A stretch of 28,334 nucleotides of DNA from positions 1-28,334 of the IMG/VR virus record IMGVR_UViG_3300035034_000221. One strand, 5' to 3'. The notes under the pieces were generated by a model, which saw nothing but the letters and a program-made list of their open reading frames with translations, was not told the origin of the DNA and searched no databases. The DNA comes from a virus. The position numbers and the translations under genes are program-made. Positions within the stretch are counted from its first letter, which is position 1; the number at the start of each line of letters is the position of its first letter. Positions 6,516 to 27,705 of this stretch are shown in pieces.

Positions 6516-6523
6516 TATTTATT
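6516..6523 (-). promoter_or_regulatory. T4-type late promoter variant (AATAAATA)
   Basis: Minus strand AATAAATACTTG matches the T4 late -10 element TATAAATA in 7 of 8 positions. With T4 geometry transcription starts near 6510, 28 bases ahead of the GTG of the structural gene at 6482. Confidence 0.5.
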
Positions 6524-8441: not shown

Positions 8442-8449
8442 TATTTATA
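8442..8449 (-). promoter_or_regulatory. T4-type late promoter (TATAAATA)
   Basis: Exact TATAAATA on the minus strand between the dCMP deaminase stop and the acidic repeat gene. T4 geometry places the start near 8436, giving a 35-base leader. It would drive the acidic protein, RuvC-like nuclease, SleB-like hydrolase and tRNA. Confidence 0.65.
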
Positions 8450-12553: not shown

Positions 12554-12677
12554 TATTAAGTACCCTTGTTATAGTTTGTTGCGGTTGGTGTTCTTCTGCT
12601 GCTGCTACCTGCAACACTATATTATTAAAATATTCATATAGCGATTTACACAAATAATATCCAGCTAGGTATTTCAT
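12516..12677 (-). CDS. possible small protein (53 aa) ahead of nrdH
   Basis: An ATG at 12677 opens a 53-codon frame (MKYLAGYYLCKSLYEYFNNI at the start, Gln/Ala-rich middle) that overlaps nrdH by 38 bases. It lies 21 bases after the predicted start of a TATAAATA element (12704-12711). No strong Shine-Dalgarno site is visible and the frame contains many Gln/Ala codons from a gctgctgctg run, so it may be fortuitous. Confidence 0.3.
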   Translation of the reverse strand: MKYLAGYYLCKSLYEYFNNIVLQVAAAEEHQPQQTITRVLNNDKQNNQPVARR

Positions 12678-12703: not shown

Positions 12704-12711
12704 TATTTATA
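12704..12711 (-). promoter_or_regulatory. T4-type late promoter (TATAAATA) upstream of nrdH
   Basis: Exact minus-strand TATAAATA in the gap between the 68-aa membrane protein and nrdH. The predicted start is near 12698. A late element ahead of a nucleotide-metabolism gene is less expected than the others; the same stretch also holds a TATAAT but no matching -35. Confidence 0.45.
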
Positions 12712-15635: not shown

Positions 15636-16094
15636 TTAGACATATTCGTAGTGTGTATATTTAAAAGTAACAGATCCCATTGGCTGGTTTTGAAATTCTG
15701 ATTCGGCCGCTGAAAATTTAATGCCAGATATAAATGTAGGCGAGCACGAATAAAATTTAACCATTTTATTTTCGTTCATATTATTATCTAGAACAGATAT
15801 TGTTATGTCTGTTAAATATTCACCAGTTTGCGTAGAAGCTTGAACCATCCATGAAACTATATCTCTCCAGCCAGCTAAGTCTTTATTAATAAGAAATGAT
15901 ATCTGTAGATCGTCAAACCTCATTTTATCACCAGTTGCATACGCATCAATATAAGTATTTGTTGGTACGTTAACACTTTGTAGTGACACTGATGGAATAG
16001 TTACATCTTGTGCAAAGTATTGAATGTCTTGAAACTTGTCAATACTAATAACAAATTTATTTGGGGATAGTAAATCTAACGTTCTCGTGGCCAT
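15636..16094 (-). CDS. T4-like tail tube / baseplate-fold protein (152 aa)
   Basis: The sequence (SPNKFVISIDKFQDIQYFAQ, then TIPSVSLQSVNVPTN, TGDKMRFDDLQISFLINKDL, WRDIVSWMVQ) follows the pattern of the short tube-fold proteins of T4-like phages of aquatic bacteria: F-x-F/I near the start, IPS-x-S-L, a GD-x-x-x-F-x-x-L-x-I-x-F core strand and a W-x-x-I-x-x-W-M helix. The strand-helix layout is that of gp19-type tube or tube-initiator subunits, which stack as hexameric rings. Which ring it forms cannot be told from sequence alone. It follows the ParB-like gene by 7 bases, under the late element at 16530. Confidence 0.65.
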   Translation of the reverse strand: MATRTLDLLSPNKFVISIDKFQDIQYFAQDVTIPSVSLQSVNVPTNTYIDAYATGDKMRFDDLQISFLINKDLAGWRDIVSWMVQASTQTGEYLTDITISVLDNNMNENKMVKFYSCSPTFISGIKFSAAESEFQNQPMGSVTFKYTHYEYV

Positions 16095-16101
16095 GTGTTA
16101 G

Positions 16102-16524
16102 TTATTCCTGATATTCTATAAAGTCTGCAGATTTCAACATAAGAATTATTTCTTTAACCGTTGCGTTTACTCTAATAGCTTCTATTGGTTCTTTTAATAT
16201 TTGAGCACATATAACTCTATGGTTGTCATCTATTACACAATTGGCTGAAGACACGAATATTTTACCGTTCTTATTAAGATTTTCTTTAGACTTTATCATT
16301 GATTCTATTTTGTCTTTATGAAAATTGCACTGAGCAAAATTTATATCCTCCGAAGGAACGGTTTCGGCTTTGTGCTCAATGTGATGGGCGTCTAATAGAT
16401 CTTTAAATTTCTGTACGTTATCTGCCTTAATCTGTGGCATGTGCTCGCGCTTGATTTCCATGCTATTGATTGTAGCATCAGCAATGTGATTGTCTATTAC
16501 ACAATTTTCTAGAAAAGTTAGCAT
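16102..16524 (-). CDS. ParB-like (partition-nuclease fold) phage protein
   Basis: The 140-aa product resembles a family common in T4-like marine phages: KREHMPQIKADNVQKFKDLL, VPSEDINFAQCNFHKDKIESM, IFVSSANCVIDDNHRVICAQ. The last segment occupies the ParB-type place IVSxDGYIIDGHHR, but with DDNHR in place of DGHHR, so a nuclease or CTPase activity is uncertain. The N-terminus begins MLTF, as does the partial gene at the right edge. A TATAAATA late element ends exactly five bases before the ATG at 16524 and no Shine-Dalgarno is present, so a leaderless mRNA is predicted. It is co-transcribed with the tube-like gene. Confidence 0.65.
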   Translation of the reverse strand: MLTFLENCVIDNHIADATINSMEIKREHMPQIKADNVQKFKDLLDAHHIEHKAETVPSEDINFAQCNFHKDKIESMIKSKENLNKNGKIFVSSANCVIDDNHRVICAQILKEPIEAIRVNATVKEIILMLKSADFIEYQE

Positions 16525-16529
16525 GAATT

Positions 16530-16537
16530 TATTTATA
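16530..16537 (-). promoter_or_regulatory. T4-type late promoter, leaderless geometry
   Basis: Exact TATAAATA on the minus strand, overlapping the stop of the 180-aa gene, then AATTC and ATG. With the T4 late-promoter geometry (element at -13 to -6) position +1 is the A of the ATG at 16524. Confidence 0.65.
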
Positions 16538-17075
16538 TGTTGCTTTCCTGTTCATCTAATCTGGCCAGCCGATCTTCTAGATCTTTACGTTGTTTATCTT
16601 TTCTGGCTTTATTATTAACATCTTTGGCTTTTGCATACCAGTCTTCTAACAACTTAAACAATTCTACAACGTCATTATCTGTTACATAAAAGTAATCGTT
16701 TAATGCGTCGTAATGAAAAACACAACTTTCATCCTTAATTGAACTTAGACCAGTATTAACACAATCTTCGCCAAAGAGGTCATATTGGCTTATTTTTATA
16801 CGCCATAGATATGTGTTATCTTTAACAATAACAGAACTATTAAAAATCTTTGATCCAGCTTTCATATACCATCTGCATACACCGTGGTATAAATCAGCTA
16901 CGCTACTATATGATACATTAACACTTCCAGTATATTTTTCGTTTAGTTTGTATTTAATGATCGTATCGTGTAAAACTTTGTTATCTGAGAATCTTAAAGC
17001 AAAATCCTGGCTATCTAACATTTTTTGTTTAAGAGTGTCCAGTTCCTCTTGATATTGTGGAATTAATTCTTTCAT
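16533..17075 (-). CDS. hypothetical protein (180 aa) with terminal coiled coils
   Basis: Not recognised. The N-terminal 25 residues and the C-terminal 45 (NNKARKDKQRKDLEDRLARL) are helical and charged; the middle has an alternating aromatic/polar pattern (YTGSVNVSYSSVADLYHGVC, YLWRIKISQYDLFGEDCVN) suggesting a small alpha/beta domain. The ATG at 17075 follows GAAAGAG by 8 bases. That ribosome site and ATG form part of a short tandem duplication (AACAGATGAAAGA twice). It follows the 54-aa gene by 3 bases and belongs to the early RNA ligase/ACP unit. Confidence 0.6.
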   Translation of the reverse strand: MKELIPQYQEELDTLKQKMLDSQDFALRFSDNKVLHDTIIKYKLNEKYTGSVNVSYSSVADLYHGVCRWYMKAGSKIFNSSVIVKDNTYLWRIKISQYDLFGEDCVNTGLSSIKDESCVFHYDALNDYFYVTDNDVVELFKLLEDWYAKAKDVNNKARKDKQRKDLEDRLARLDEQESNI

Positions 17076-17078
17076 CTG

Positions 17079-17243
17079 TTAAACTCTTTCATCTGTTGTT
17101 ATATAATCTTTAATATTACCAGCGATGAACACTTTCAATGTTTTACCATCGTCCTGTTCACTAAACGAAATTTCGCCACGAACAACCATGGCTCTACCAT
17201 TTGAATCAATAATCTCAAACCTGTTAACCGTTTTGTTTTCCAC
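17079..17243 (-). CDS. hypothetical protein (54 aa, GTG start)
   Basis: A GTG at 17243, one base after the RNA ligase stop, opens a 54-codon frame. It has CGGAG 10 bases upstream and ends four bases before the next ATG. The product reads like a compact beta-hairpin domain: RFEIIDSNGRAMVVRGEISF, then GKTLKVFIAGNIKDYI. Not recognised. Spacing, ribosome site and amino-acid make-up support a real gene. Confidence 0.65.
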   Translation of the reverse strand: MENKTVNRFEIIDSNGRAMVVRGEISFSEQDDGKTLKVFIAGNIKDYITTDERV

Positions 17244-17244
17244 T

Positions 17245-18486
17245 TTAATAATACTCCGTTGCGTTTTTACGTAAAAGGTAATCTGGACTAACGAATTTCA
17301 GTTGGGCACGGTTGCCTGGTAGTCCTCTAACGTCGTTTCTTTCTTTAAATAGCGGGCGGATGACAACACCCTCACGAATACAAGTCCCATTACCAGTTAC
17401 AGTTTTACCATCACGATGTTCAATTGCAACTTCTTTAGAATATGGCCCTTTATATAACGCATCAACAATAGGCATACCAAACTCTTCTTTCATCTCTTCA
17501 AGTTCAAACCACGATGAAAACGATTCCGTGCTTCCTGTACTGTCAATGTTATTATATAAAACATCAAACACTCTAACTTGTGGTGATTGTTCGCCGTATG
17601 ATAAATCCTGTATACCTGCGCCATAGATTTCTCCAAAGATATAAATCATTATATCTGTTTGATCTCCATCACCCAACATTCTATCAATAATACCAGTGTC
17701 GATAAACAATTCGTTTAATGTTTTTACATATATATTATCATGGTTGTTTGGGACGTTTAGTTGAACTACACCCCTAGAACCTAAACCCTTTGAAGTTACA
17801 TAAACATAAACATCACGATTACCAAGTTTAATAATATCGCCATTGTCCAATAAAGATTCTATTTGTGGTTTGCCGTTAAACTTATCACCAGACAAAATAC
17901 CAATTTGAACGTTTGTTCCATGAATCTTTTCAAGAATAACAACGTCTTCCCCATCTTTAAACACGTCTGTGTATCTTTGTATGTTCTCAATGTCGTATTT
18001 TCTGGTATACCCACGCATATTACCCGATAGTTGGCCTCGCATCTGTGCTGGAACAATTACTTCACGTTTTGTAATGTTTAGAAAATTAGAAGCGTCTTCA
18101 CCATCAGACATATAATAGTTTAAACCAAGTGGAATTGTTAGTTTAATAACGTCGTTTGATTCTTTGTAAACGTTACCGTATAAAATACCCTGACTAATCT
18201 CACCACGAAGTTTAATAATCTTTACTCGGTTGCCCTTAGAACCAGACAACATCCCAATTTTCTTTTCTTCGTTCCAAAACCCCATTACACACAATAGATC
18301 TTCATCTAGTATTGAATCTTCTGGTATATAAACAACGTAATCGCCTTCTTTATATCTATGAGAACCGTCTTCAAGTTTACCAGTTATACACTGATACCCA
18401 AGAACTTCTACTATTGATAATCTATCGGCGTTTGGGTGGTCTCTTACTGAAAGGACTTTAGTAAGGGGGCAAGAGTGTGTTGACAT
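17245..18486 (-). CDS. Rnl5-type RNA ligase
   Basis: The 413-aa protein has two parts. Residues 8-105 form an OB-like N-terminal domain (KVLSVRDHPNADRLSIVEVL, YKEGDYVVYIPEDSIL, GNRVKIIKLRGEISQGILYG), the arrangement known from the Deinococcus radiodurans RNA ligase (Rnl5 family). Residues about 150-413 are the ligase core: LEKIHGTN with K187 as adenylated lysine (motif I KxHGxN), FGEIYG (motif IIIa), REGVVIRP (motif IV), QLKFVS (motif V). It joins RNA 3'-OH and 5'-phosphate ends; the D. radiodurans enzyme seals nicks with a 3'-OH RNA strand. Phage RNA ligases often repair tRNAs cut by host anticodon nucleases. Shine-Dalgarno AAGGA is 10 bases upstream; acyl carrier protein gene precedes by 14 bases. 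Confidence 0.87.
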   Translation of the reverse strand: MSTHSCPLTKVLSVRDHPNADRLSIVEVLGYQCITGKLEDGSHRYKEGDYVVYIPEDSILDEDLLCVMGFWNEEKKIGMLSGSKGNRVKIIKLRGEISQGILYGNVYKESNDVIKLTIPLGLNYYMSDGEDASNFLNITKREVIVPAQMRGQLSGNMRGYTRKYDIENIQRYTDVFKDGEDVVILEKIHGTNVQIGILSGDKFNGKPQIESLLDNGDIIKLGNRDVYVYVTSKGLGSRGVVQLNVPNNHDNIYVKTLNELFIDTGIIDRMLGDGDQTDIMIYIFGEIYGAGIQDLSYGEQSPQVRVFDVLYNNIDSTGSTESFSSWFELEEMKEEFGMPIVDALYKGPYSKEVAIEHRDGKTVTGNGTCIREGVVIRPLFKERNDVRGLPGNRAQLKFVSPDYLLRKNATEYY

Positions 18487-18500
18487 GTTTGCAGATTTCC

Positions 18501-18755
18501 TTAATTGATTTTTGATTCTACTAGTTTGATAATGTCGCCGACGGTTTCTTTGCCTGAAATTTCAGAATCAGGTATTTCAATATTGAACACTTCTTCTAAG
18601 TGCATAACAACCTCAATACTGTCTAAGCTGTCTGCACCAAGATCTTGTTCCAAATTTTGATTTTCTTCGGTTAAGTGATCTCGACCAAGCGATAATACAT
18701 CTTGAATTGCTTTAATAACTTCGTCTTTGATATTCGATTGCGTAATAGTAACCAT
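18501..18755 (-). CDS. acpP: acyl carrier protein
   Basis: The 84-aa protein is a full-length ACP: DLGADSLDSIEVVMHLEEVF places the phosphopantetheine serine at S43 (D42-S43-L44), followed by the typical helix II and EIPDSE. A five-residue extension precedes the usual start. After modification by host holo-ACP synthase it could carry acyl chains to host or phage enzymes. Phage-borne ACPs are known from several large and marine phages but their role is unclear. Its partner here may be the membrane protein gene just upstream (3 bases away). Shine-Dalgarno GGAAAG lies before the ATG. Confidence 0.93.
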   Translation of the reverse strand: MVTITQSNIKDEVIKAIQDVLSLGRDHLTEENQNLEQDLGADSLDSIEVVMHLEEVFNIEIPDSEISGKETVGDIIKLVESKIN

Positions 18756-18758
18756 AAT

Positions 18759-19202
18759 TTAATTCTTTCCTATTGCTGCTTTAATGTTTGGGCCGATCGT
18801 TGCCATTATTGGTATTGCATGTTTTGGTTGTGTAAACGCAACAATGACTGTTATAATTAACAATGGAGAAAATAGAATCAACGCCAAGAAGTGGTAGAAG
18901 TATTCGGTGAAAGTAAAGCACGTTCTAAATTCAACAAAAACAGTTGTGTCGTTCTTAACACTCTCAATAACAATATTGCCTTTAAGTCCTGTCATTTTTA
19001 ATATATCACCAGCTTTTGAGATACCTTTAAACATATAACGGTTTACTTCTGAATTAGCTTTAAACATTGGTTCTGAGATATACCACGGTTTAATCTTTAC
19101 CCCAACAAAAGTGCCACGAAGAAACATAAGAGCGGTTTCCACAGTTTCTTCATGCGATACTCCAGTTTGGCGCTTAAAAGATATTAGATTGGTTCTTTGC
19201 AT
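18759..19202 (-). CDS. membrane-anchored protein of unknown function (147 aa)
   Basis: Not recognised. Residues 1-95 form a basic, beta-rich cytoplasmic-looking domain (VETALMFLRGTFVGVKIKPW, AGDILKMTGLKGNIVIESVK); residues about 101-127 form a hydrophobic helix (FYHFLALILFSPLLIITVIV); a short tail (IPIMATIGPNIKAAIGKN) follows, weakly hydrophobic. It starts with GAGGA 7 bases before the ATG, about 29 bases after the predicted start of its own promoter (19238-19266), and is followed 3 bases later by the ACP gene. A lipid- or acyl-linked function with ACP is possible but is inference from position. Confidence 0.65.
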   Translation of the reverse strand: MQRTNLISFKRQTGVSHEETVETALMFLRGTFVGVKIKPWYISEPMFKANSEVNRYMFKGISKAGDILKMTGLKGNIVIESVKNDTTVFVEFRTCFTFTEYFYHFLALILFSPLLIITVIVAFTQPKHAIPIMATIGPNIKAAIGKN

Positions 19203-19237
19203 TATATATTCCTCATTTTGTTTTAAATTATAAATCT

Positions 19238-19266
19238 GTTATACAACAAGTTTATATAGCAGTCAA
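19238..19266 (-). promoter_or_regulatory. early sigma70-type promoter for the ACP/RNA ligase unit
   Basis: TTGACT (19266-19261), 17 bases, TATAAC (19243-19238): one mismatch in each box. The start would be near 19231, 29 bases before the ATG at 19202. Confidence 0.7.
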
Positions 19267-19275
19267 TAGTTTTAT

Positions 19276-19596
19276 TTAGATAATTAAACCTTTGTTTGGC
19301 GTAATAATAGTAGAAGACCCAGTTACTTTTTTATAAAGTGCTGCAAGATCTTCGTTGGCTTCTTGACAATACACAACGGTCGCAACATTGAACTTAATGG
19401 TTTTTGTCTTTGTAAAATGCGTCATGTGATCAAAATGCGGCTGAGCTTGTGCGCCAGGATTATCTTGAACCAAATATACTGCAACTGGATTATCAAGAAT
19501 AACAATTCTATCATCAAGCTGGGCGTTAACTTCATCAAATTCGCCAACAACGTTTTTGCCATTGATTAGTTCTAGTGTGTAAATTTTCTTTATCAT
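19276..19596 (-). CDS. Sm/Hfq-like fold protein (tentative)
   Basis: The 106-aa protein has the strand pattern of Sm-like proteins seen in T4-like marine phages: YTLELINGKNVVGEFDEV (strands 1-2 with the ING turn), DRIVILDNPVAVYLVQ (strands 3-4 with the conserved NP), a loop with several His, then KTIKFNVATVVYCQEANED (strand 5) and a C-terminal helix plus IITP tail. Sm-like proteins bind RNA as rings; whether this one does is unknown. Perfect early promoter at 19638-19666, about 35 bases of leader. No strong Shine-Dalgarno site (AGGTTTATAAC). Assignment is by pattern only. Confidence 0.5.
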   Translation of the reverse strand: MIKKIYTLELINGKNVVGEFDEVNAQLDDRIVILDNPVAVYLVQDNPGAQAQPHFDHMTHFTKTKTIKFNVATVVYCQEANEDLAALYKKVTGSSTIITPNKGLII

Positions 19597-19637
19597 TTTG
19601 TTATAAACCTATTCTTTTTATTTTTAATCATGTTTGT

Positions 19638-19666
19638 ATTATATACTATTAATTGGTGGATGTCAA
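19638..19666 (-). promoter_or_regulatory. consensus early sigma70 promoter (leftward)
   Basis: TTGACA (19666-19661), 17 bases, TATAAT (19643-19638), exact consensus. It drives the Sm-like gene. Only four bases separate its -35 from the rightward late element at 19671-19678. Confidence 0.87.
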
Positions 19667-19670
19667 CCCA

Positions 19671-19678
19671 AATAAATA
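19671..19678 (+). promoter_or_regulatory. T4-type late promoter variant, leaderless geometry (rightward)
   Basis: AATAAATA (7 of 8 matches to TATAAATA), then AAATT, then the ATG of the glycosyltransferase at 19684. The spacing equals that at 16530 and 23463, so transcription is predicted to begin at the ATG. Confidence 0.5.
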
Positions 19679-19683
19679 AAATT

Positions 19684-20547
19684 ATGAAAAGAATTGGAAT
19701 ATATTATAACTGTAAATCGCAACATCAAATACGATATGCCTCACAAATGGCAATTGGAATGAAAAAACTTGGTTGTAGAGTTGACGTAATTCCAAAAGAT
19801 AGTACAGCTGTAAACGTTGAAAAATATGATTGTATTGCTTTTTGGGCCCACAAAGAAAGAAGATTAATGGAACTAGCAAGACAAGCAAAAGTTCCATATT
19901 TGGTAATGGAACGGGCATATCTTGGCGACAGACACAATTGGTTGTCTTTGGGTTTTAACGGTCTTAATGGTAGAGCTCGGTTTAATAATAAACACATAAC
20001 ATCAACAGAGCGGTTTAACAAATATTGGAAGATGAAAGATTGGAAAGTAAAAGAATCTGGGTATGTTCTGGTAATTGGGCAAGTTGCAGGCGATGCGTCG
20101 CATTCTCACGTAAGCATTGGTGATTGGTATATTAATACAATTTCTAATCTGGTTAGACTTGGACATAACGTTGTTTTTAGACCCCATCCTTTAGACAAAA
20201 ACAATTCCTTACATTGTATTAGAGGATTGGCCTGTAACATTGATCAGTGTAAGAACTTAGAAGATCATTTTACAGACGAATCAAATTGTAAAGCGGTGGT
20301 TACTTTTAATTCTAATTCTGGAGTTTTGTCTGTCATGAACGGCATACCAACGTTCTCCCAAGATTGCGGATCAATGGTTTATAGTGTTGCCAGTCACGAT
20401 TTAAACAAATTGATACAAACACCATGTAGAAACGACTGGGCCGCGAAAATAGCATATACACAATGGTTGCCAGAAGAGTTGGAATCTGGAGAATTTTGGG
20501 AACACTTAACGTCTACCAACACTACCGATTGCTTTAGCAAGTATTAG
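19684..20547 (+). CDS. Kdo-transferase/capsule-synthesis-like GT-B glycosyltransferase
   Basis: The 287-aa protein has the C-terminal nucleotide-sugar half of capsule-polysaccharide (KpsC/KpsS-like) transferases: YVLVIGQVAGDASHS (127-141), NVVFRPHPLDKNN (162-174), then AVVTFNSNSGVLSVMNGIPTF (a 21-residue stretch of which NSNSG at 209-213 is the core), and QWLPEELESGEFW (260-272). The N-terminal half is a short Rossmann-like domain (MKRIGIYYNCKSQHQIRYAS). It is the only rightward gene between 1 and 23475. It could glycosylate phage DNA bases, virion proteins or host surface sugars. I chose the ATG at 19684 because the longer frame (from 19630) would include the promoter region. It ends overlapping the RNase H-like gene tail-to-tail by 4 bases. 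Confidence 0.72.
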   Translation: MKRIGIYYNCKSQHQIRYASQMAIGMKKLGCRVDVIPKDSTAVNVEKYDCIAFWAHKERRLMELARQAKVPYLVMERAYLGDRHNWLSLGFNGLNGRARFNNKHITSTERFNKYWKMKDWKVKESGYVLVIGQVAGDASHSHVSIGDWYINTISNLVRLGHNVVFRPHPLDKNNSLHCIRGLACNIDQCKNLEDHFTDESNCKAVVTFNSNSGVLSVMNGIPTFSQDCGSMVYSVASHDLNKLIQTPCRNDWAAKIAYTQWLPEELESGEFWEHLTSTNTTDCFSKY

Positions 20548-21383
20548 AAATTCTGAAGTTCTTTAATCATTGATGGCATGTTATTATCCATAAAATACTT
20601 TTTGATTTTCATAGCATCACCAGCCACTTCCAATTCTTTATACGAATCAACTATACTAGACTTAATATTATCTGGAATACACGAAAAGTCAATTAGTTGT
20701 TTATTGCGTTTATAATTTTCTAACATGTCTAGTGTTTCACAGAAGTATTTTGGGTCATCGTATTTTGACCATTCAGCTAGTTTAACTTTAGAAATCGGCG
20801 GTTGTCTTTTACACTCGGTCATTAAAGTGTCGCCATCAGATTTAATGTTAGGAATACCATCGCCGGGATCGCCTGTTATAATCAACTCTCTAAGAGCAAT
20901 AACAGGATCATCACACTCAATGAATTTCTTTTGATTGTTTGAAAACTGTTTTACAAATTCAGAATGACACTGTTTAAAATCTTTATCAGAACCAACGATC
21001 ATTACCTTATCGTGGACGTTTCTAGATAAAATCCCAATTATATCATCAGCTTCCGCTTTATCAACTTCTATAATTTTCCATTTAAAATTATCGCGTAACT
21101 CTTGTTTTAACTCTGTTAAAATTTTAAAGATCTGATCCCAGTCTGTTGAAGATGTTTCGCGATTGTCTTTACGTTTGCCTTTATAATAAGGAAAGATATC
21201 TTTACGCCATATGTTTTTGGCATCACAACAAATAACCATCTCGCCATATTCATTCTTAAATCTTTTATATACAGCTAGTAGCGATCTAATAATTAAGAAT
21301 TTACAATAGTCAGCGTCTTTATGATCTCTTTGTGTAAGAAGCGCTGCATATGAGATATTTGAGAAGTCAAGTAATATAGTCAT
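20544..21383 (-). CDS. rnh: T4 RNase H-like 5'-3' exonuclease (FEN/PIN family)
   Basis: The 279-aa protein has the metal-binding pattern of T4 RNase H and related flap nucleases: MTILLDFSNISYAAL with D6, CCDAKNIWRKDIFPYYKGKR with D54 and the arch arginines/lysines, KAEADDIIG with E111/D113/D114, VGSDKDFKQ with D133/D135, and ITGDPGDGIPNI with D172 and D175 in the helix-hairpin-helix entry. T4 RNase H (305 aa) removes RNA primers from Okazaki fragments. It fits with the DNA ligase in lagging-strand repair. The ATG at 21383 follows GGGAAAA. It is last in the early unit started at 22998-23026. Confidence 0.92.
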   Translation of the reverse strand: MTILLDFSNISYAALLTQRDHKDADYCKFLIIRSLLAVYKRFKNEYGEMVICCDAKNIWRKDIFPYYKGKRKDNRETSSTDWDQIFKILTELKQELRDNFKWKIIEVDKAEADDIIGILSRNVHDKVMIVGSDKDFKQCHSEFVKQFSNNQKKFIECDDPVIALRELIITGDPGDGIPNIKSDGDTLMTECKRQPPISKVKLAEWSKYDDPKYFCETLDMLENYKRNKQLIDFSCIPDNIKSSIVDSYKELEVAGDAMKIKKYFMDNNMPSMIKELQNF

Positions 21384-21386
21384 AAT

Positions 21387-21593
21387 TTAATATTTTCCCA
21401 TCATTAATCTAAAGTCAATATACTCAGCAGCGTCTTCAAGCGTTTCTGTACTGGTCTTTTTAAACTCTAGAATGTTGTTTTTTATCGTCTGTATAGAAAC
21501 GCCATGTCTAATTGATATTTCATTGATTATTGATTGATAGGAACAGTTCAAGATCATTCTCCAGTTTTTGTTTATATTGCGATTGTAGATCAT
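21387..21593 (-). CDS. small helix-turn-helix-like protein (68 aa or shorter)
   Basis: The segment YQSIINEISIRHGVSIQTIKNNI has helix-turn-helix spacing (RHGVS at the turn), suggesting DNA binding; the rest is helical and acidic (KTSTETLEDAAEYIDF). The start is uncertain: ATG at 21593 has only a weak AAGAA upstream, and another Met 12 codons on has GGAG too close. A different frame (21520-21654) overlaps its first half. It is followed by the RNase H-like gene (3 bases). Confidence 0.5.
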   Translation of the reverse strand: MIYNRNINKNWRMILNCSYQSIINEISIRHGVSIQTIKNNILEFKKTSTETLEDAAEYIDFRLMMGKY

Positions 21594-21654
21594 ACATACG
21601 TTCTTGTTGAAACGCGGCGTATGTGTTAAACTTAAACGATACTCTGTTGGGCAC
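21520..21654 (-). CDS. alternative overlapping small ORF (44 aa, GTG start)
   Basis: A GTG at 21654 opens a 44-codon frame that overlaps the end of the 64-aa gene and the start of the helix-turn-helix-like gene. Its product (MPNRVSFKFNTYAAFQQERM, then a helical Lys/Glu stretch) looks protein-like and would fill the 38-base gap, but the ribosome site is weak. One of the two overlapping frames, or both, may be used. Confidence 0.3.
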   Translation of the reverse strand: MPNRVSFKFNTYAAFQQERMYDLQSQYKQKLENDLELFLSINNQ

Positions 21655-21826
21655 GAAATTCTGCGACAATTTTTTGATCTCCTGTTAACATATAAAGATG
21701 GTCTTCAAATAATTTATACATTAACTCTATATGGTTCTTTTCTTCTGGGTGTTTAATACCAAAATAATTAACACGTTGTGTAAACCATTCCAGTGTAGTC
21801 ATGGCTTGTTCTTTGTATGTTAACAT
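21632..21826 (-). CDS. hypothetical protein (64 aa)
   Basis: Not recognised. A soluble, helical protein (MTTLEWFTQRVNYFGIKHPE, then NHIELMYKLFEDHLYMLTGD). The ATG at 21826 directly follows the stop of the 378-aa gene (TAA-T-ATG) and has GAAAG about 9 bases upstream; a Met 8 codons in is an alternative. It belongs to the early unit 22964 to 20544. Confidence 0.6.
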   Translation of the reverse strand: MLTYKEQAMTTLEWFTQRVNYFGIKHPEEKNHIELMYKLFEDHLYMLTGDQKIVAEFRAQQSIV

Positions 21827-21827
21827 A

Positions 21828-22964
21828 TTAAAACGCTTTCAAAATTATACAATGTTGATTAATTCTGCCAGATGGAGTCTTTTCTTTACCCTTGATAGTA
21901 TCCATGAATTTTCTTTGAGATACCTTTGAACAATTGTTTAGCATACCAAATGATTCATGCGGTGACTTAAGTAACTTTTCGCATGAATCATCAGCATCAA
22001 AATTATAAACAGTAGATCCTTTCACGAGAATACCAATACTATCACAAGAAACAAAACGTGTCAACCTTTTTGTTTTAGTATTAAAAACAAATACGGCATC
22101 TTTACCTATCATATTAGATACTGGTGATATAGATGATATATTGTATGTTTCGCAGACCTTCAGATAGTTAAGGCGTGATACCATTTTAGATGGGATTATT
22201 TTCTTTGGTTTTGGGATTTTATCATCAGAAGATGAGGAAGATTTTGTCTTCCTTTTACTTGTTTTCTTTTCATATGAATCAAGATGATCTAAAACTAATT
22301 TATAAACTTTAGAAAAGAATTTAACATCAACATTTGTCTTATCCTTAACTTTCTTATTAGTATCTGGGCAAATATATGAATCTTCAATTGTTAACTCTTT
22401 TACATATGAATCTACTACAGATCTTAGATGTTTATTATCAAAACCCTCATTATTATTAAAGATGTCTATTGGATTTTTTAAACCTTTAGTTTTCTTCAAT
22501 AGACAGTCGTCGAAAAAGCCTTCAATGAAATCCATTACATTGTCAGTTTTAACTTGTTTAGATGTTCTAGATTTAATTTTAGAAGTCTGTTGTTTATGTT
22601 TAACACTGTTTTTTGATTCTTCGTCTTTTTCTTCGTGTTTTTTAATTATTTCCATTAGAATTGATTTTATTCTATTTGTTGTAGTATCATTCAGACCTTG
22701 CTCGTTTAGCCAACAGAGGGATCCTAGAGATGAAAATCTAAACGCTGATACTTGTGAAATATCTATTTTTAGGTTATTTCTAATAATCCATTCTTGTACA
22801 AAACCTTTACGTTGTTCAAGATCATATGATTGATCTACATAGTAAAGCGCTTGCGTTAACTTTGGAACATATCCAGCTTTCCCATACTGCATACTTTCAA
22901 TTGGAGGGCACGAAACTCCGCTCAGCGTTTTATTAATAGCTGAAATGCTTTTCTTTTTTGCCAT
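21828..22964 (-). CDS. conserved T4-like phage protein of unknown function (378 aa)
   Basis: N-terminal third (AINKTLSGVSCPPIESMQYG, ALYYVDQSYDLEQRKGFVQE, FRFSSLGSLCWLNEQG) and C-terminal third (MVSRLNYLKVCETYNISSIS, AVFVFNTKTKRLTRFVSCDS, GSTVYNFDADDSCEKLL) are compact. They are joined by long lysine- and serine-rich linkers (residues about 105-140 and 238-255). The C-terminal pattern (NTKTRKL-x-x-F, VKGTT-x-x-NF, KxLRKP-like) recurs in hypothetical proteins of T4-like phages of marine bacteria; no activity is known. It is the first gene of a unit with an exact consensus promoter, so it is expected to be abundant early. The basic linkers suggest nucleic-acid contact. Confidence 0.7.
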   Translation of the reverse strand: MAKKKSISAINKTLSGVSCPPIESMQYGKAGYVPKLTQALYYVDQSYDLEQRKGFVQEWIIRNNLKIDISQVSAFRFSSLGSLCWLNEQGLNDTTTNRIKSILMEIIKKHEEKDEESKNSVKHKQQTSKIKSRTSKQVKTDNVMDFIEGFFDDCLLKKTKGLKNPIDIFNNNEGFDNKHLRSVVDSYVKELTIEDSYICPDTNKKVKDKTNVDVKFFSKVYKLVLDHLDSYEKKTSKRKTKSSSSSDDKIPKPKKIIPSKMVSRLNYLKVCETYNISSISPVSNMIGKDAVFVFNTKTKRLTRFVSCDSIGILVKGSTVYNFDADDSCEKLLKSPHESFGMLNNCSKVSQRKFMDTIKGKEKTPSGRINQHCIILKAF

Positions 22965-22997
22965 GATTTTTGTGAAGCCTTATTTTTGATTTTAATT

Positions 22998-23026
22998 ATT
23001 ATATACTATATTGCGCGAAATGTCAA
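22998..23026 (-). promoter_or_regulatory. consensus early sigma70 promoter
   Basis: TTGACA (23026-23021), 17 bases, TATAAT (23003-22998), exact consensus, overlapping the last codons of the 116-aa gene. The start near 22991 gives a 27-base leader for the 378-aa gene. Confidence 0.87.
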
Positions 23027-23373
23027 CACGTTTTTTCGTTAAGCTTATTTTTATAGAAAGCTTCAACTGTTGTTTGTCTAACAAAACTTAATTCGTCTTG
23101 TATAACACCTGCTGGGTATTCATTGCTTAATAATTTATGAACAGATTTTTCAGAACTAGCTAATGTTTCTAGAATATTATCGTATTGTTCTTTAAGATCC
23201 TTTGTTTCTTGTTCTCCCAAGTTGGATCCACGACCAAGAACGTTTTCTTTATACCTCGACCATAAATCTAGATAGGCGGCATAGAACCTCACATATTGTT
23301 TTAATGCAGTATAACCATCGGCCTTACTTAGAAAATCTACAACATTGCTCTTTTTATTATTTACTTTAGACAT
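23023..23373 (-). CDS. hypothetical helical protein (116 aa)
   Basis: Not recognised. Mostly helical with many Tyr, Lys and Glu (ALKQYVRFYAAYLDLWSRYK, then EQETKDLKEQYDNILETLAS); no signal or membrane segment. It has its own promoter at 23419-23446 with a leader of about 39 bases. Its 3' end overlaps the -35 box of the next unit. Early timing is inferred from the promoter. Confidence 0.62.
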   Translation of the reverse strand: MSKVNNKKSNVVDFLSKADGYTALKQYVRFYAAYLDLWSRYKENVLGRGSNLGEQETKDLKEQYDNILETLASSEKSVHKLLSNEYPAGVIQDELSFVRQTTVEAFYKNKLNEKTC

Positions 23374-23418
23374 ATTAACGAATCCCCTTGATGTTTCTTT
23401 ATAATTAATGTTACGATC

Positions 23419-23446
23419 ATTATATTTTATTGTTTAAAGATGTCAA
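23419..23446 (-). promoter_or_regulatory. consensus early sigma70 promoter (leftward)
   Basis: TTGACA (23446-23441), 16 bases, TATAAT (23424-23419). It drives the 116-aa gene. The rightward late element at 23463 lies only 16 bases away. Confidence 0.8.
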
Positions 23447-23462
23447 TAGTATATTTTCATAG

Positions 23463-23470
23463 TATAAATA
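23463..23470 (+). promoter_or_regulatory. T4-type late promoter, leaderless geometry (rightward)
   Basis: Exact TATAAATA, then ATAAT, then the ATG of the tube-family gene at 23476. No Shine-Dalgarno site precedes this ATG. T4 geometry puts +1 on the A of the ATG. It leads the rightward virion block. Confidence 0.72.
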
Positions 23471-23475
23471 ATAAT

Positions 23476-24039
23476 ATGACTGTACTTAAAACAAATGATA
23501 TTCTAACTCACGTGTTTAGAAATTATCCTCTTCAACCATTTTTATATAGAGTATATATCAATGGAGGAGGACCAGTACCAGACGCAAACTCAGATATAAT
23601 GCTTAATTGCACGAGTATTATGGTTCCAGGCGAAAACATGGGCGTTAACTTTGTAAAACGCCACGGGATTGGAAGACCAACTAATATTGCAACTGGAAAA
23701 TCGTTTACGGAGGTCACGTTAGATTTTATGGAAGCTGATGGTTCCCCAGAGAAAAAATACTTTTCAGACTGGCAAAAGCAAATGTTTAATCCTGTTACAC
23801 AAAGAATTGGTTTCTATAAAGATTATACAAAGACAATATTAATAGATCAATACGATCGCTCTGGTAATATAACGTTTCAAGGCAAGCTCATAGAGTGTTT
23901 TCCATCTAACATTACTCCAGTTTCTCGTGGTTATGATATGACAAACCCGTCTACTGTGACCGTATCGTTCCAGATATATAACGTTGAAGAAATGTACTTT
24001 AATAAAGAACGCGGAGTAAACCCGTTTGGATTTATCTAA
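23476..24039 (+). CDS. gp19-family tail tube protein
   Basis: The 187-aa product follows the T4 gp19/gp54 tube fold: an N-terminal FLYRVYINGG strand, SIMVPGENMGVNFVKRHGIG (P-x-x-x-x-x-x loop and basic turn), TGKSFTEVTLDFMEADGSPE (T4 gp19 has GDRTFDDWTVTVMNDEA here), KKYFSDWQKQM (gp19 RQKFVDWQ), and a closing strand VTVSFQIYNVEEMYF. Tube proteins stack as hexamers inside the contractile sheath. Together with the hub gene downstream it may be the main tube or a tube-initiator ring near the baseplate. I chose the ATG at 23476 over an upstream frame start at 23440, because the latter would precede the late promoter. Confidence 0.75.
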   Translation: MTVLKTNDILTHVFRNYPLQPFLYRVYINGGGPVPDANSDIMLNCTSIMVPGENMGVNFVKRHGIGRPTNIATGKSFTEVTLDFMEADGSPEKKYFSDWQKQMFNPVTQRIGFYKDYTKTILIDQYDRSGNITFQGKLIECFPSNITPVSRGYDMTNPSTVTVSFQIYNVEEMYFNKERGVNPFGFI

Positions 24040-25354
24040 CCTATTCACCAGTTTTACAAATGAAGAATTCATGAGCTTTGATGGTTATGAAGTTGGGTAT
24101 ATGACTTCTCTTAATGAAATTGTTAGATTTGCGTCAAAAAGAGCTCAAGGTATATCAGAAAACAAATTACTGGATTGGATCATACCAGAGAACGATAAAA
24201 ACTATAACAGAGGGAATGTAGTAAATTCTAGAAAACTTGAATCTATTATATCTAAATTGTCAATGACTACAAGTATAGTTACATCGTTTGATTCGTTAAA
24301 TCATATGTTGGGTATTAGAGAGTTTTTTCCTGTCAACATCCAAACCCTTTTAAGAAATTTTCAGACAGTTTCAAATTCTTCTCAGAACATTTTAAATGTT
24401 TTAAATTCTACTTCACCATATAAAGGTATTGTACTATCGCTAGTACAGGACTATCAATTACAATTTGGCAACAATAAAATGTCGTTATCTGATATTCTTC
24501 AAATAAAAGACCAAATTCAGAACAGTATGCCGTCTAAAGGTTTAACGCCAAACAACGCACTAAGATCAATATTGTCTTTGCCAGTGAGATCGCTGTTACC
24601 AAACGGCTTTCAGAATATTTTAGAATATGCAGACGTTGCGTTAAGAATTCAAGAGTTTGCTCAAAATTCTCCAAATTTTTTAAACGGTCTAAAGGCACAA
24701 CTCAAACAGCTAGACAACAACACAAAAGTTAATTCTTATGTTAAAGCTTCTAATTATAATAAAGCTAACGTGTATCTTGGAGATCCACTTGGGTTTGTTG
24801 GTCGAGGATCTTTTGCCGATGAATATTCGCTAAATTCAAACAAAGTATTGTGTTCTGTTGTTTCAGATTATATTGGCAAAACCAATTTTGATAACTCTGG
24901 GTTAGTACACACAATTACAGAATATTCAGATGATGTAATTAAAGGTGAGATCGCAAGATCTAATATTATTCTTCCAAATTTATATGATGTTACAACTGGT
25001 ATTAAAGCTGATAGTTATAATAGAACACGTGATGCATTTTTAACAGCAACAGAAACGTTTGTTCAATCGGTTATAAACTCAGATAAAATTTATGATGTTA
25101 AGGATCCAGGGTTTTCTATTAATAAAATTGGGACAACAAAACAAGAGCCTTCATACGTTGATTATTTGGTTAATCTTAAACGTAATATAAGAGCTCGTAT
25201 TGAAATACTCAATATGGGAGTATCAACACCAGAACTGGCAAGATTAAACTCTGTTATAGAACCAAATATTAAATCAAAAGACATGTCAATAGAGAATTTA
25301 AACAAAATTCTAGATTCTATTAATTTAAGCACGAACGATGGGGATAACAGATAA
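24026..25354 (+). CDS. probable baseplate/tail structural protein (442 aa, TTG start)
   Basis: Not recognised by motif. It is largely helical with Asn/Ser-rich segments (LRNFQTVSNSSQNILNVLNS, LKAQLKQLDNNTKVNSYVKA); a middle part (SNKVLCSVVSDYIGKTNF) is beta-like. It lies between the tube-family and hub genes, so a baseplate or tube-cap role is likely. The best start is TTG at 24026, which has CGGAG 9 bases upstream and overlaps the previous gene by 14 bases; the first in-frame ATG is at 24071 with a weaker GAAGAA. The stop overlaps the next ATG by one base (TAATG). Confidence 0.65.
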   Translation: MDLSNLFTSFTNEEFMSFDGYEVGYMTSLNEIVRFASKRAQGISENKLLDWIIPENDKNYNRGNVVNSRKLESIISKLSMTTSIVTSFDSLNHMLGIREFFPVNIQTLLRNFQTVSNSSQNILNVLNSTSPYKGIVLSLVQDYQLQFGNNKMSLSDILQIKDQIQNSMPSKGLTPNNALRSILSLPVRSLLPNGFQNILEYADVALRIQEFAQNSPNFLNGLKAQLKQLDNNTKVNSYVKASNYNKANVYLGDPLGFVGRGSFADEYSLNSNKVLCSVVSDYIGKTNFDNSGLVHTITEYSDDVIKGEIARSNIILPNLYDVTTGIKADSYNRTRDAFLTATETFVQSVINSDKIYDVKDPGFSINKIGTTKQEPSYVDYLVNLKRNIRARIEILNMGVSTPELARLNSVIEPNIKSKDMSIENLNKILDSINLSTNDGDNR

Positions 25355-26535
25355 TGAATTCTTCTGAAATGTTCATGGGCAAAAACGGATTTTACTGGTG
25401 GTTTGGCACAGTAGAAGATAATGGTGATCCTTTGTCACTTGGAAGGTGTAGGGTTCGTATAACAGGGTGGCACAACGAAGATTTTATTATTCTTCCATCT
25501 GATGCTCTACCGTGGGCATACCCTTTAAGCAGTATTGATAATACAGCAATTTCTGGTATTGGTAAAAAAACAATGGGACCAGTTCCAGGAACTCGTGTTT
25601 TTGGGTTTTTCTTGGATGGAGAATCTGGCCAGCAACCGATAATAATGCACACGGTTCCAGGAATGACAAATGTAGAACATGGTAGAAGAACTCCTGTTGG
25701 TTCTGTTCCGTGGTTTCCAAATTTTAATTTTAATTTTCTTTCACGAGAAACGCACAAATCCGAGGGCGAGAACCCGTTAGCAGGCAATGGCTCTCAGACA
25801 ACAAACAACATAATTGTTCCTGATTATGAAGTGATAAAGAATCTAGACCCCTCTGAATGGGTTTTACCAGCATCTGGTTTTGTTTCTGCACCGTATGGTG
25901 ATCCACACCGACAATCTAGGCATGTTGGTGTTGATATATGTCCAGCTGGTTTCTTTAAACAAACAGAACCAGGCGCAAAACACCTTAATGGCGCAATGAA
26001 GGGACCAACTGGTCTTCCGGTTGTGTCTGCAGCCGCTGGTGAGGTTGTTTGGGTACAGACATCAGACGTTGGTCAACGGGGGATATTTTCTGACTATGAC
26101 AAGAATGGGCCAAAGAACGGCGGCAGAGATGGTAGGAGGTCTTATGGTAATGTTGTTGGTATAAGACACAATTTAAGTTCTGGAACTTTCACAACAATAT
26201 ATGCTCACCTTGGTTTGTCTCAAGACCCTAGTCTTGACCAGCCAGGCGCCGGTGTTCTTGTGAGAGTTGGTGATAAAGTATCAAAAGGCCAGATAATTGG
26301 TAACATGGGAAGATCGCACTGTTGGGATGTACTAACACACTTGCATTTTGAGATACGAACAGACACTGGTTTGCCGAAGTCCACTAACGCCATAAACCCA
26401 GGACAGATATTTCCACAGTTGTTATCAAGACACACGGGTTTCGACTCGGCGGCAAGGAACGCAATCAAATATGATCAAGATTTAGGATTAACAGCATCGG
26501 TGATGCCAGTCGTTCAGGGTAAGGGCCCAGCATAA
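25354..26535 (+). CDS. gp5-like baseplate hub protein with M23 peptidase
   Basis: Residues 8-105 form the gp5-type OB-fold (FYWWFGTVEDNGDPLSLGRC, RVRITGWHNED, PGTRVFGFFLDGE, QQPIIMHTVPG). Residues about 168-355 form an M23/LytM peptidase: RHVGVDI with zinc ligands H190 and D194, PVVSAAAGEVVW, YGNVVGIRHN, TIYAHL with H285, VGDKVSKGQIIGNMG, and THLHFEI with H329 and ligand H331. T4 gp5 carries a muramidase lysozyme between OB-fold and spike; here an endopeptidase takes that place and the spike is on the next gene. The enzyme would cut peptidoglycan cross-links during DNA entry. Shine-Dalgarno GGGGAT precedes the ATG; the stop lies 4 bases before the spike gene. Confidence 0.92.
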   Translation: MNSSEMFMGKNGFYWWFGTVEDNGDPLSLGRCRVRITGWHNEDFIILPSDALPWAYPLSSIDNTAISGIGKKTMGPVPGTRVFGFFLDGESGQQPIIMHTVPGMTNVEHGRRTPVGSVPWFPNFNFNFLSRETHKSEGENPLAGNGSQTTNNIIVPDYEVIKNLDPSEWVLPASGFVSAPYGDPHRQSRHVGVDICPAGFFKQTEPGAKHLNGAMKGPTGLPVVSAAAGEVVWVQTSDVGQRGIFSDYDKNGPKNGGRDGRRSYGNVVGIRHNLSSGTFTTIYAHLGLSQDPSLDQPGAGVLVRVGDKVSKGQIIGNMGRSHCWDVLTHLHFEIRTDTGLPKSTNAINPGQIFPQLLSRHTGFDSAARNAIKYDQDLGLTASVMPVVQGKGPA

Positions 26536-26539
26536 CAAC

Positions 26540-27685
26540 ATGACAGACGATCTAAGTAAAATATCTATTTCTGAAGAGCTTGATGCGCCACAAGGTTCAA
26601 TCGGAGACACGTATTCTGTTCATAACAAAATAAAGATGAATAGAACCGAGACGATATCAACAGCAGATGACGAAATTAATATTACAGAGCCATCATCTGC
26701 TAGTCACCCGGTGTACCCGTATAACAACTCAGAACAAACAATGTCTGGTCATGTTAGAGAACTGGATGACACTCCTGGTGCTGAGCGTATCTTTGAGATG
26801 CACAAATCCGGAACGTTTTATGAGATTCACCCAGACGGCACAAGGGTTCTTAGAGTTTATGGTGATAACTTTGAAATAGCCCTATCAGATAACAACTTGG
26901 TTGTTGGTGGCAATTTAAACATAACGGTTCAGGGCGATGCTAATATACTCACAAAGGGTAATGTTAAGCAAAAAGTTGGTGGCAATTATGAATTAACAGT
27001 TCATGGTAATATGCAAACACGTGTTCGTGGTACTAGAATGGACTATACTAAAGGTGATACAACTATACAAACAAATTCTAATATGGAGATTAGAACAGAG
27101 GGAACAAGGCTTGATTATACTAAAGGTAATATGACGGTCCAGACAAAATCCACGTTTGAACGAAGAGTTGATGGAGATACTCTTGAATATACTAAAGGAA
27201 CTGTTGATATGCAATCAGGCGATGATATGTTTGTTAGATCAGAAGCGATGTTTCAAGTGTATTCTCAAGACCTGTTATCGTGTAAAACAAACGCAGACAT
27301 GTATTGGGAAGCCAGGGACCAAATTCTAGGAGCGGCTTCAGCGTTCGCGATAGATTCATCTGGAGATTTCTCGTGTCACTCATCTGGTACTATTAAAATT
27401 ATATCAGACCAAAATGTGTGGATAGATGGAGCGCAAGTACGGCTCGGTGAATCCGGTGATGGTACTACTCCAGTAGACATTAATATCGACGAAATAGAAG
27501 ATAAAGATCCAGAAGATAAAGATCCAGAAGATAAAGATCCAACCGGCGGTCTTACAGTAGAAAAATCTGTTACATATCCGTCTAGCGACATTATTAAAAC
27601 TTTATCTTTAAACGATCATGGTGTATTATCTCTTTTAGACGGAGATGACACAACATATCCTAAAGATAGAACGAAAATAGACTAA
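26540..27685 (+). CDS. gp5C-like beta-helical central spike protein
   Basis: Residues 56-120 match the entry of the T4 gp5 C-terminal spike: HPVYPYNN (56-63), SGHVRELDDTPGAER (69-83), MHKSGTFYEIHPDGT (87-101). Residues about 120-300 hold short G-x-x-x repeats (VGGNLNITVQGDANILTKGN) typical of the triple-stranded beta-helix, including three longer repeats with TRxDYTKGxxTxQT between about 163 and 225. A tripled EDKDP stretch (27497-27541) and a 50-residue tail follow. It should trimerise under the hub, capped by the PAAR protein (2858-3142). T4 makes hub and spike as one chain that is cleaved; here they are separate genes. No strong Shine-Dalgarno site, so coupling to the hub gene is likely. 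Confidence 0.88.
   Translation: MTDDLSKISISEELDAPQGSIGDTYSVHNKIKMNRTETISTADDEINITEPSSASHPVYPYNNSEQTMSGHVRELDDTPGAERIFEMHKSGTFYEIHPDGTRVLRVYGDNFEIALSDNNLVVGGNLNITVQGDANILTKGNVKQKVGGNYELTVHGNMQTRVRGTRMDYTKGDTTIQTNSNMEIRTEGTRLDYTKGNMTVQTKSTFERRVDGDTLEYTKGTVDMQSGDDMFVRSEAMFQVYSQDLLSCKTNADMYWEARDQILGAASAFAIDSSGDFSCHSSGTIKIISDQNVWIDGAQVRLGESGDGTTPVDINIDEIEDKDPEDKDPEDKDPTGGLTVEKSVTYPSSDIIKTLSLNDHGVLSLLDGDDTTYPKDRTKID
27497..27541 (+). repeat. 15-bp tandem repeat (3 copies) in the spike gene
   Basis: Three perfect copies of gaagataaagatcca, each encoding Glu-Asp-Lys-Asp-Pro. They form an acidic linker between the beta-helix and the C-terminal tail. Confidence 0.95.
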
Positions 27686-27689
27686 GAAA

Positions 27690-27705
27690 TATAAATATAT
27701 AAATA
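27690..27705 (+). promoter_or_regulatory. two tandem T4-type late promoters (TATAAATA x2)
   Basis: Exact TATAAATA occurs at 27690-27697 and again at 27698-27705 in the gap before the last gene. Predicted starts are near 27703 and 27711, giving leaders of about 39-47 bases with a normal ribosome site. The doubling may raise expression or be a simple AT expansion. Confidence 0.6.

Follow-up and report, generated by a model that had tools for sequence, protein, structure and literature searches.

How is a phage gene read when it has no Shine–Dalgarno (SD) site and a late promoter ends five bases before its start codon? The question is raised by three genes in a viral DNA record of 28,334 bases (IMG/VR record IMGVR_UViG_3300035034_000221, analysed at full length and called the window here), which its proteins identify as a T4-superfamily fragment: it encodes two gp19-family tail tube proteins, a gp5 OB/M23 protein and a gp5 C-terminal-like protein. 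A first-pass annotation made from the letters had proposed that these genes are translated from leaderless late mRNA, and we found the three box–N5–ATG sites exactly where it had put them. The first, TATAAATAAATTCATG, lies at 16537..16522 on the minus strand, with a T4-type late promoter box TATAAATA (16530..16537) that overlaps the stop codon of the preceding gene (16533-17075) and stands five bases ahead of the ATG at 16524..16522. The other two are on the plus strand at divergent junctions: AATAAATAAAATTATG at 19671..19686, with the box AATAAATA (19671..19678) five bases ahead of the ATG at 19684, and TATAAATAATAATATG at 23463..23478, with the box TATAAATA (23463..23470) five bases ahead of the ATG at 23476. 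The T4 late element spans −13 to −6, according to the part of PMC1524935 available to us, and the window boxes are TATAAATA-like if variation at −13 is tolerated. In the reading we consider probable, each site is a T4-type late promoter (gp55-class TATAAATA box) brought up close against its gene; the predicted +1 is then the A of the ATG, and the late mRNA would be leaderless and SD-less.

The spacing, and not the number of boxes, is what is unusual, because TATAAATA by itself is close to expectation in the window (6 against 5.25 expected). WATAAATA-N5-ATG occurs three times, against a mean of 0.27 in 100 dinucleotide shuffles, none of which reached three. For called genes we measured the gap from ATAAATA to the ATG, with 20 permuted 7-mers as the control; genes were called by a simple longest-open-reading-frame (longest-ORF) rule on sequence cut into pieces no longer than 20 kb, which loses genes at the cuts, and only ATG was counted as a start, so that the AUG expected of a leaderless mRNA is present by construction. 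Three of the eight ATAAATA copies in the window have the exact N5-ATG arrangement; within gaps 0–23 only gap 5 is occupied, gaps 24, 26 and 40 occur once each, and the permuted expectation at gap 5 is 0.05 (maximum 1). One could hold that three N5 coincidences were simply spotted by eye in a window of 35% G+C, with TATAAATA at its expected number, three sites only and a gap chosen after looking, but chance of this kind is highly unlikely given the shuffles, the 0.05 expected at gene starts and the independent enrichment of the same spacing in SAR11 phages.

That enrichment comes from the count that the first-pass annotation had suggested, of the five-base spacing against other spacings in relatives, and it supported the proposal in pelagimyophage-type records. 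Across the window, HTVC008M, Mosig, Melnitz and the IMG/VR contigs G019–G022 (together, the eight records), gap 5 was found at 38 called genes against 0.90 for the permuted motifs, compared with 1 against 0.40 in T4, KVP40, Syn9, P-SSM2, phiM12, Cr30, PhiW-14, Moby and Vi01 combined. By record, observed counts and permuted means were 3/0.05 in the window, 8/0.10 in HTVC008M, 6/0.35 in Mosig, 3/0.05 in Melnitz, 7/0.25 in G019, 4/0.05 in G020, 2/0 in G021 and 5/0.05 in G022; 0/0.10 in T4, 0/0 in KVP40, 0/0.05 in Syn9, 1/0.05 in P-SSM2, 0/0.05 in each of phiM12, Cr30, PhiW-14 and Vi01, and 0/0 in Moby; and 0/0.45, 0/0.55, 0/0.10 and 0/0 in records G001, G002, G004 and G006. PA5oct (3/0.45, with a permutation maximum of 3) and G003 (2/0.10) are undecided as users of the spacing. 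Coverage was 140000 of 141461 bases for Mosig, 140000 of 141548 for Melnitz, 180000 of 183755 for G001, 100000 of 100911 for G004, 80000 of 82636 for G020, 60000 of 88138 for G021, 280000 of 286783 for PA5oct and 240000 of 244834 for KVP40, and two pieces of G005 were left out of the analysis. The same box is in clear excess at gaps 18–40 in T4 (25 against 6.2), KVP40 (20 against 4.15), Syn9 (15 against 2.5) and P-SSM2 (33 against 7.0), which makes these four true leadered controls; the commonest box–ATG gap was 28 in T4 and 22 in P-SSM2. Kyanoviridae is the family under which HTVC008M, Mosig and Melnitz are listed, and it also includes the cyanophages Syn9 and P-SSM2, both of which keep their leaders.

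A whole-record search for ATAAATA-N5-ATG, with the reversed pattern as control, gave a similar distribution. Matches occurred in 12 of the 31 records of a first set (pattern against control: HTVC008M 9 vs 1, T4 2 vs 0, KVP40 0 vs 2, Syn9 1 vs 1, P-SSM2 3 vs 3, PA5oct 8 vs 4, G001 1 vs 4, G003 2 vs 0, G006 2 vs 0); the two T4 matches are not at called genes, and Astolliot and V45v66, covered by the pattern search only, had no match. In a second set, 16 of 20 records had a match, with 48 against 11 overall (Mosig 8 vs 0, Melnitz 4 vs 0, G019 8 vs 1, G020 5 vs 1, G022 5 vs 1, G021 2 vs 1); from this set the called-gene gap count took only Mosig, Melnitz and G019–G022. Thus, in the window and more often in T4-type phages of SAR11, a late promoter ends five bases before the start codon. 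Two SAR11 phage isolates show the layout in its fullest form; one OM43 phage shows it less, and related contigs have it as well.

We then asked where transcription from such a promoter would begin. The base directly before the ATG is C or T in 36 of the 38 spacing-5 genes, including all three in the window, compared with 332 of the 718 remaining ATG genes in these records (Fisher p 6e-10). In 53 of 70 leader-bearing late promoters of these records the sixth base after the box is A, and this is where a pyrimidine–purine step is commonest (31/70); T4, KVP40, Syn9 and P-SSM2 have their peak of such steps at the same place (37/89 sites). A start about six bases after the box at a pyrimidine–purine initiator is therefore seen as a sequence bias. 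The bases just after the box are most commonly G, T and A in both layouts over the whole set, the window's three sites excepted, and base counts revealed by eye no strong upstream element. The shared post-box bases and initiator indicate one promoter type, in one class of which the initiator is the start codon, and they point to the A of the ATG as the probable +1.

The genes themselves fall into two layouts. An SD-like 4-mer, scored at −18 to −5, is present at none of the three spacing-5 genes of the window and at 21 of its 37 other called genes, against 12% at random positions; the claim that the three genes lack an SD site therefore stands, and the accompanying statement that most other genes have one holds for only just over half. 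Over the eight records such 4-mers occur at 7 of 38 genes with gap 5 and 0 of 9 with gaps 6–9, near the random rate of 12–17%, and at 59 of 69 genes with a box 15–45 bases upstream (T4, 21/23). In the window and the pelagimyophage-type records a late gene thus has either a leader and an SD site, with the box about 15–45 bases before the ATG, or the other layout, which we predict to have at most a very short leader and which lacks an SD site, with the box 5–9 bases before the ATG.

Gene position fits a promoter at this place. The upstream neighbour is divergent for 11 of the 38 spacing-5 genes, compared with 65 of 900, and every same-strand spacing-5 gene leaves at least 7 bases behind the gene before it (27/27, against 370/835) in genomes whose packing is tight; such divergence and clearance are what a promoter needs. 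It might be supposed instead that the AT-rich element is a translation enhancer or an S1-binding site in a longer mRNA begun elsewhere, since AT-rich stretches close to start codons are frequent in genomes as AT-rich as these, and for 27 of the 38 genes that carry the element the preceding gene is on the same strand. However, permuted motifs of equal composition do not have the spacing, the expected +1 carries a pyrimidine–purine initiator, and outside the window the post-box bases are shared with late promoters 15–45 bases upstream; moreover, the 11 divergent first genes need a promoter of their own, and the window's two divergent junctions (87 and 102 bases) contain no other ATAAATA. We regard an enhancer role in place of a promoter as quite unlikely.

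Is the spacing always five? At gp25 loci of IMG/VR contigs (the best 80 of 241 relatives), a box stood 5–9 bases before the ATG in all 80, with gap 5 in 36, gap 6 in 20, gap 7 in 3, gap 8 in 19 and gap 9 in 2, and the sequence further upstream of the box varied between clades. Five as a general rule was accordingly rejected. The gp25 gap is 8 in Mosig, 16 in Melnitz, 21 in G003, 23 in KVP40 and 30 in both P-SSM2 and phiM12; for gp25 of T4, Syn9, G001, G002, Moby and PhiW-14 the ATGs tried had no box at a distance of up to 60 bases, and no gp25 match was obtained in PA5oct. The leaderless proposal of the first-pass annotation thus keeps its support from the enriched spacing, the initiator bases, the lack of SD sites and the position of the genes, and loses its fixed distance at gp25, where gaps of 6–9 also occur. 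Leaderless or near-leaderless late mRNA is, on these sequence grounds, a well-supported prediction.

A search for relatives of the window returned a near-identical contig and 79 kept contigs with an NrdA identity of 58–63%, and other genes of these NrdA-related contigs have boxes at gaps 7–11. A large, putatively baseplate-like gene, with the N-terminus MAxxKISYTERDF or MAxxRISYTVRDF, has another short-leader layout in 16 of these IMG/VR loci, the late box standing 11 bases (L049, L054, L056, L057, L058, L060, L066, L068, L075, L079, L080 and L081) or 9 bases (L045, L055, L077 and L083) before the ATG.

The genes that carry the spacing are best seen in HTVC008M, in which all nine ATAAATA-N5-ATG sites are coding-sequence starts annotated in the NCBI record; the ninth, at 75559, was missed by our gene caller. 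The genes are gp010 (oxygenase), gp014 (CsgF), gp020 (putative tape measure), gp025 (DNA end protector), gp027 (tail tube cap), gp053 (baseplate wedge, gp25 type), gp063 (baseplate wedge initiator), gp092 (after the major head protein) and gp190 (regulator); gp25, gp48 and gp2 are T4-equivalent names given to annotated products. Tape measure, end protector, tail tube cap and baseplate genes are of the late kind, but CsgF, oxygenase and regulator genes are also in the set. In the window, the tail tube gene at 23476 heads a gp5 unit and a second tail tube gene follows the gene that starts at 16524. The annotated major head, sheath and portal genes of HTVC008M are outside the spacing-5 set, with listed boxes 61 bases ahead of the sheath gene and 30 ahead of the portal gene and none listed just before the major head gene, so the layout does not merely serve to maximize late translation.

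Mechanistically, RNA polymerase with the phage late sigma factor would start on the A of the ATG, and the late mRNA would begin with AUG and be read by ribosomes that accept a 5′-terminal AUG; we infer both the actual 5′ ends and this mode of translation. An SD-less gene would be poorly read from read-through transcripts and would become translatable once its own late promoter fires. The HTVC008M annotation includes a late sigma factor, a putative late promoter factor and a clamp; gp55, gp33 and a clamp were not recognized among the proteins searched in the window, which is a fragment. With a leaderless set made up of baseplate, tail and accessory genes and without sheath, portal or major head genes, a late lock combined with compact layout is favoured over maximal translation: baseplate, tail and accessory proteins may be tied to late infection in very little DNA, a role to which we give somewhat less than an even chance. 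Pure genome compaction, in which promoters drift to the ATG and dispensable leaders are lost with no regulatory role, is plausible but on balance doubtful. It agrees with the median of 3 bases between same-strand genes and with the gp25 variants at gaps 5–9, but two points speak against it: the layout returns on the same types of gene (gp25 type, end protector, tail tube cap, baseplate), and the boxes of the HTVC008M sheath and portal genes lie well upstream.

Several observations weigh against the leaderless reading. The window has only three sites, which lack the G, T and A common after the box in other records, and contig L004, with 99.9% identity to the window across 20,449 bases, is too nearly identical to be independent evidence; likewise, the 80 gp25 contigs are related and do not represent 80 independent events. 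Four of the 20 second-set records had no pattern match (G024, 0 vs 2 in the control) and G029 had 2 vs 2, and phiM12, Cr30 and PhiW-14 are weak controls, since their box is in no clear excess at any gap (gaps 18–40: 4 against 3.6, 2 against 1.65 and 1 against 0.5). SD words are also missing from most leadered late genes of Syn9 (present in 4/14) and P-SSM2 (present in 7/31), so that across the family a missing SD site is not peculiar to the leaderless class. The clearance from upstream genes is partly built in, because one of the three frames through the box contains a stop codon. The +1 is itself a prediction taken from T4 and from sequence bias; emptiness of gaps 0–4 was rejected as proof of it (5 seen against about 8 by permutation in the pelagimyophage-type set), and with a fixed +1 genes at gaps 6–9 would have leaders of 1–4 nucleotides. 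Finally, leaderless sigma-70 genes were not apparent in a 400-kb SAR11 sample (gaps 4–8: 5 against 10.4 by permutation), in a gap profile with crude start calls and with TATAAT itself rarer than its permutations.

That profile also bears on whether the layout merely follows a host that itself uses leaderless genes. TATAAT-N6-ATG against its reversed pattern numbered 38 vs 35, 41 vs 36, 31 vs 27, 25 vs 20 and 27 vs 27 in five SAR11 genomes, and a host explanation is supported neither by these counts nor by the 400-kb profile. The core of the SAR11 16S anti-SD sequence is present, as TACCTCCTTT in the 12 ends listed of 61; the alternative anti-SD word CACCTCCTTT matched 1 of 66. In the same 400 kb (L477–L496), SD-like 4-mers precede SAR11 genes at a near-random rate (60/376 against 281/2000), and SAR11 phages often use SD words despite this.

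The first-pass annotation had suggested that altered ribosomes favour these mRNAs, and a candidate agent would be a phage bS21 that replaces host bS21 and makes the ribosome select leaderless late mRNA. In the available parts of the sources, S21 and peptide deformylase belong to the pelagimyophage core (PMC7029224), HTVC008M bS21 enters E. coli ribosomes (PMC6375957, PMC9976891), and phage bS21 is expressed late (PMC9723584) and has been proposed to redirect ribosomes (PMC9723584, PMC9976891). We found bS21 in 7 of 25 records, plus Mosig and Melnitz; HTVC008M, Mosig, Melnitz, G019, G020 and G021 all have both bS21 and spacing 5, and its distribution fits a SAR11-type group. Yet G001 and G002 have bS21 and no spacing-5 gene, although both carry little weight as counter-examples, the box being in only slight excess at any gap (gaps 18–40: 10 against 6.65 and 9 against 4.75), and bS21 was not upheld as a predictor of the spacing. 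SD sites are still in use, being kept by many late genes (59/69); the window fragment lacks bS21; and an effect of bS21 is not separated from shared descent. The word 'leaderless' is absent from the available text of PMC9976891, PMC9723584 and PMC6375957, that of PMC7029224, PMC9723584 and PMC9976891 draws no link between bS21 and leaderless mRNA, and the in vitro work on HTVC008M bS21 used, in the part of PMC6375957 available, a GFP template under a T7 promoter. Selection by a phage-modified ribosome is therefore unlikely on present evidence. A wider picture, to which we assign a distinctly low probability, is that T4-type phages of SAR11 and OM43 might run two late translation regimes, SD-led and leaderless, with the balance shifted by the phage bS21 ribosome; leaderless late mRNAs would then be a dedicated expression class, and the window phage a second, distant lineage with the same device.

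T4 late transcription is the textbook system, and its late mRNAs have leaders. Leaderless mRNA is also familiar, lambda cI transcribed from PRM being an example in temperate phages. Our predicted mRNAs share with those of bacteria and temperate phages the 5′-terminal AUG and the lack of an SD site, and differ in that the 5′ ends are predicted here and the genes are lytic late genes, virion genes among them, under a phage-specific promoter type. The promoters resemble those of T4 (gp55/gp33/gp45), as described in the available parts of PMC1524935 and PMC2988020, in the TATAAATA box at −13 to −6, the A/T at −13, the AT-rich segment downstream and the pyrimidine–purine step at the same place. In T4, however, the box–ATG gap is mostly 17–29, never below 12 at called genes, and an SD site is usual, compared with a gap of 5 (to 9) and no SD site here. 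The early/late translational discrimination of T4 gene e (PMC3014915, available part) is alike in outcome, the late transcript being translatable and the longer early one not; there an inhibitory RNA structure is responsible, whereas here a ribosome-binding site would be absent, so that only a 5′-terminal AUG would serve. Late promoters were searched for in the same phage group in PMC7029224, the available part of which reports that prediction of middle and late promoters failed, never uses 'leader' and describes no leaderless layout; nor did the open-licence literature searched, as far as its text was available, yield a description of such mRNA among the late transcripts of T4-type phages. 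The spacing-5 layout may help to explain the failed published prediction, it corrects start-codon calls, and its genes are a concrete substrate for testing phage-encoded bS21.

Such a correction applies at both divergent junctions of the window. A longest-ORF caller would place the plus-strand starts upstream, at 19630 and 23440, and is misled there by in-frame ATGs (19660 and 23440) in the complement of TTGACA boxes. These boxes belong to two perfect sigma-70-type promoters on the minus strand, one per junction and back to back with the leaderless-type late promoters: TTGACA-N17-TATAAT at 19638..19666, ahead of the 19276-19596 gene, and TTGACA-N16-TATAAT at 23419..23446, ahead of the 23023-23373 gene. 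The junctions can be read as pairs of back-to-back promoters, late on the plus strand and, if T4 is a guide, early on the minus strand. A consensus promoter and terminator scan of the window gave nothing above shuffles except three perfect sigma-70-type promoters, the third of which (12/12) is at 23026-22998 (−). Further late-type boxes in the window are a leadered AATAAATA at 6516..6523 (−), ahead of the 6060-6482 gene (GTG start, AAGGAA upstream); TATAAATA at 8442..8449 (−), 40 bases ahead of the ATG of 8066-8401; TATAAATA at 12704..12711 (−), 26 bases ahead of the ATG at 12677; and two adjoining TATAAATA boxes at 27690..27705 (+), ahead of an open-ended ORF listed from 27738.

The product labels first given to the three genes fared unevenly. 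The gene at 16102..16524 (−), the first of its predicted leaderless transcript, encodes 140 amino acids and had been called ParB-like; it has no Pfam family, and its PHROG matches (phrog_2859 and phrog_11358) are both of unknown function. Nor did a glycosyltransferase label find support for the predicted leaderless gene at 19684..20547 (+, 287 amino acids), which has no Pfam family and no PHROG match; 10 of its 11 matching phage records are hypothetical proteins of Caulobacter phages, and the best match is to a feature named putative PLP-dependent enzyme. The tail tube label agrees with the family match of the predicted leaderless gene at 23476..24039 (+, 187 amino acids), which matches phrog_45 (E 1.7e-24). 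The remainder of its unit (24026..27685, +) consists of a 442-amino-acid ORF, the gp5 OB and M23 peptidase gene (25354-26535) and the gp5 C-terminal-like protein gene (26540-27685). Here gp5 is seemingly divided over two genes (25354-27685, +), an OB domain–M23 peptidase fusion and a separate C-terminal spike-like protein. The other gp19-family tail tube gene (15636..16094, −; phrog_45, with a Pfam Phage_T4_gp19 score slightly under the cut-off) follows 7 bases after the 16102-16524 gene. The two tail tube genes are thus on opposite strands, that at 15636-16094 (−) standing second in, and that at 23476-24039 (+) heading, a unit with a leaderless-type promoter.

The phage collection held only distant kin of the window, the 23476 tail tube protein being about 31% identical to the best matches listed; two single-protein scans found no closer relative, and a further search gave only the near-identical contig. 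The window also encodes a T4-type RNase H, both ribonucleotide reductase subunits, a dCMP deaminase, an RNA ligase and an NAD-dependent DNA ligase. It carries a tRNA-Arg (tct) gene at 6810-6734 (−), as Mosig also has a tRNA-Arg(tct) and Melnitz a tRNA-Arg, and a phage acyl carrier protein gene at 18501-18755 (−; phrog_5934, E 2.2e-16).

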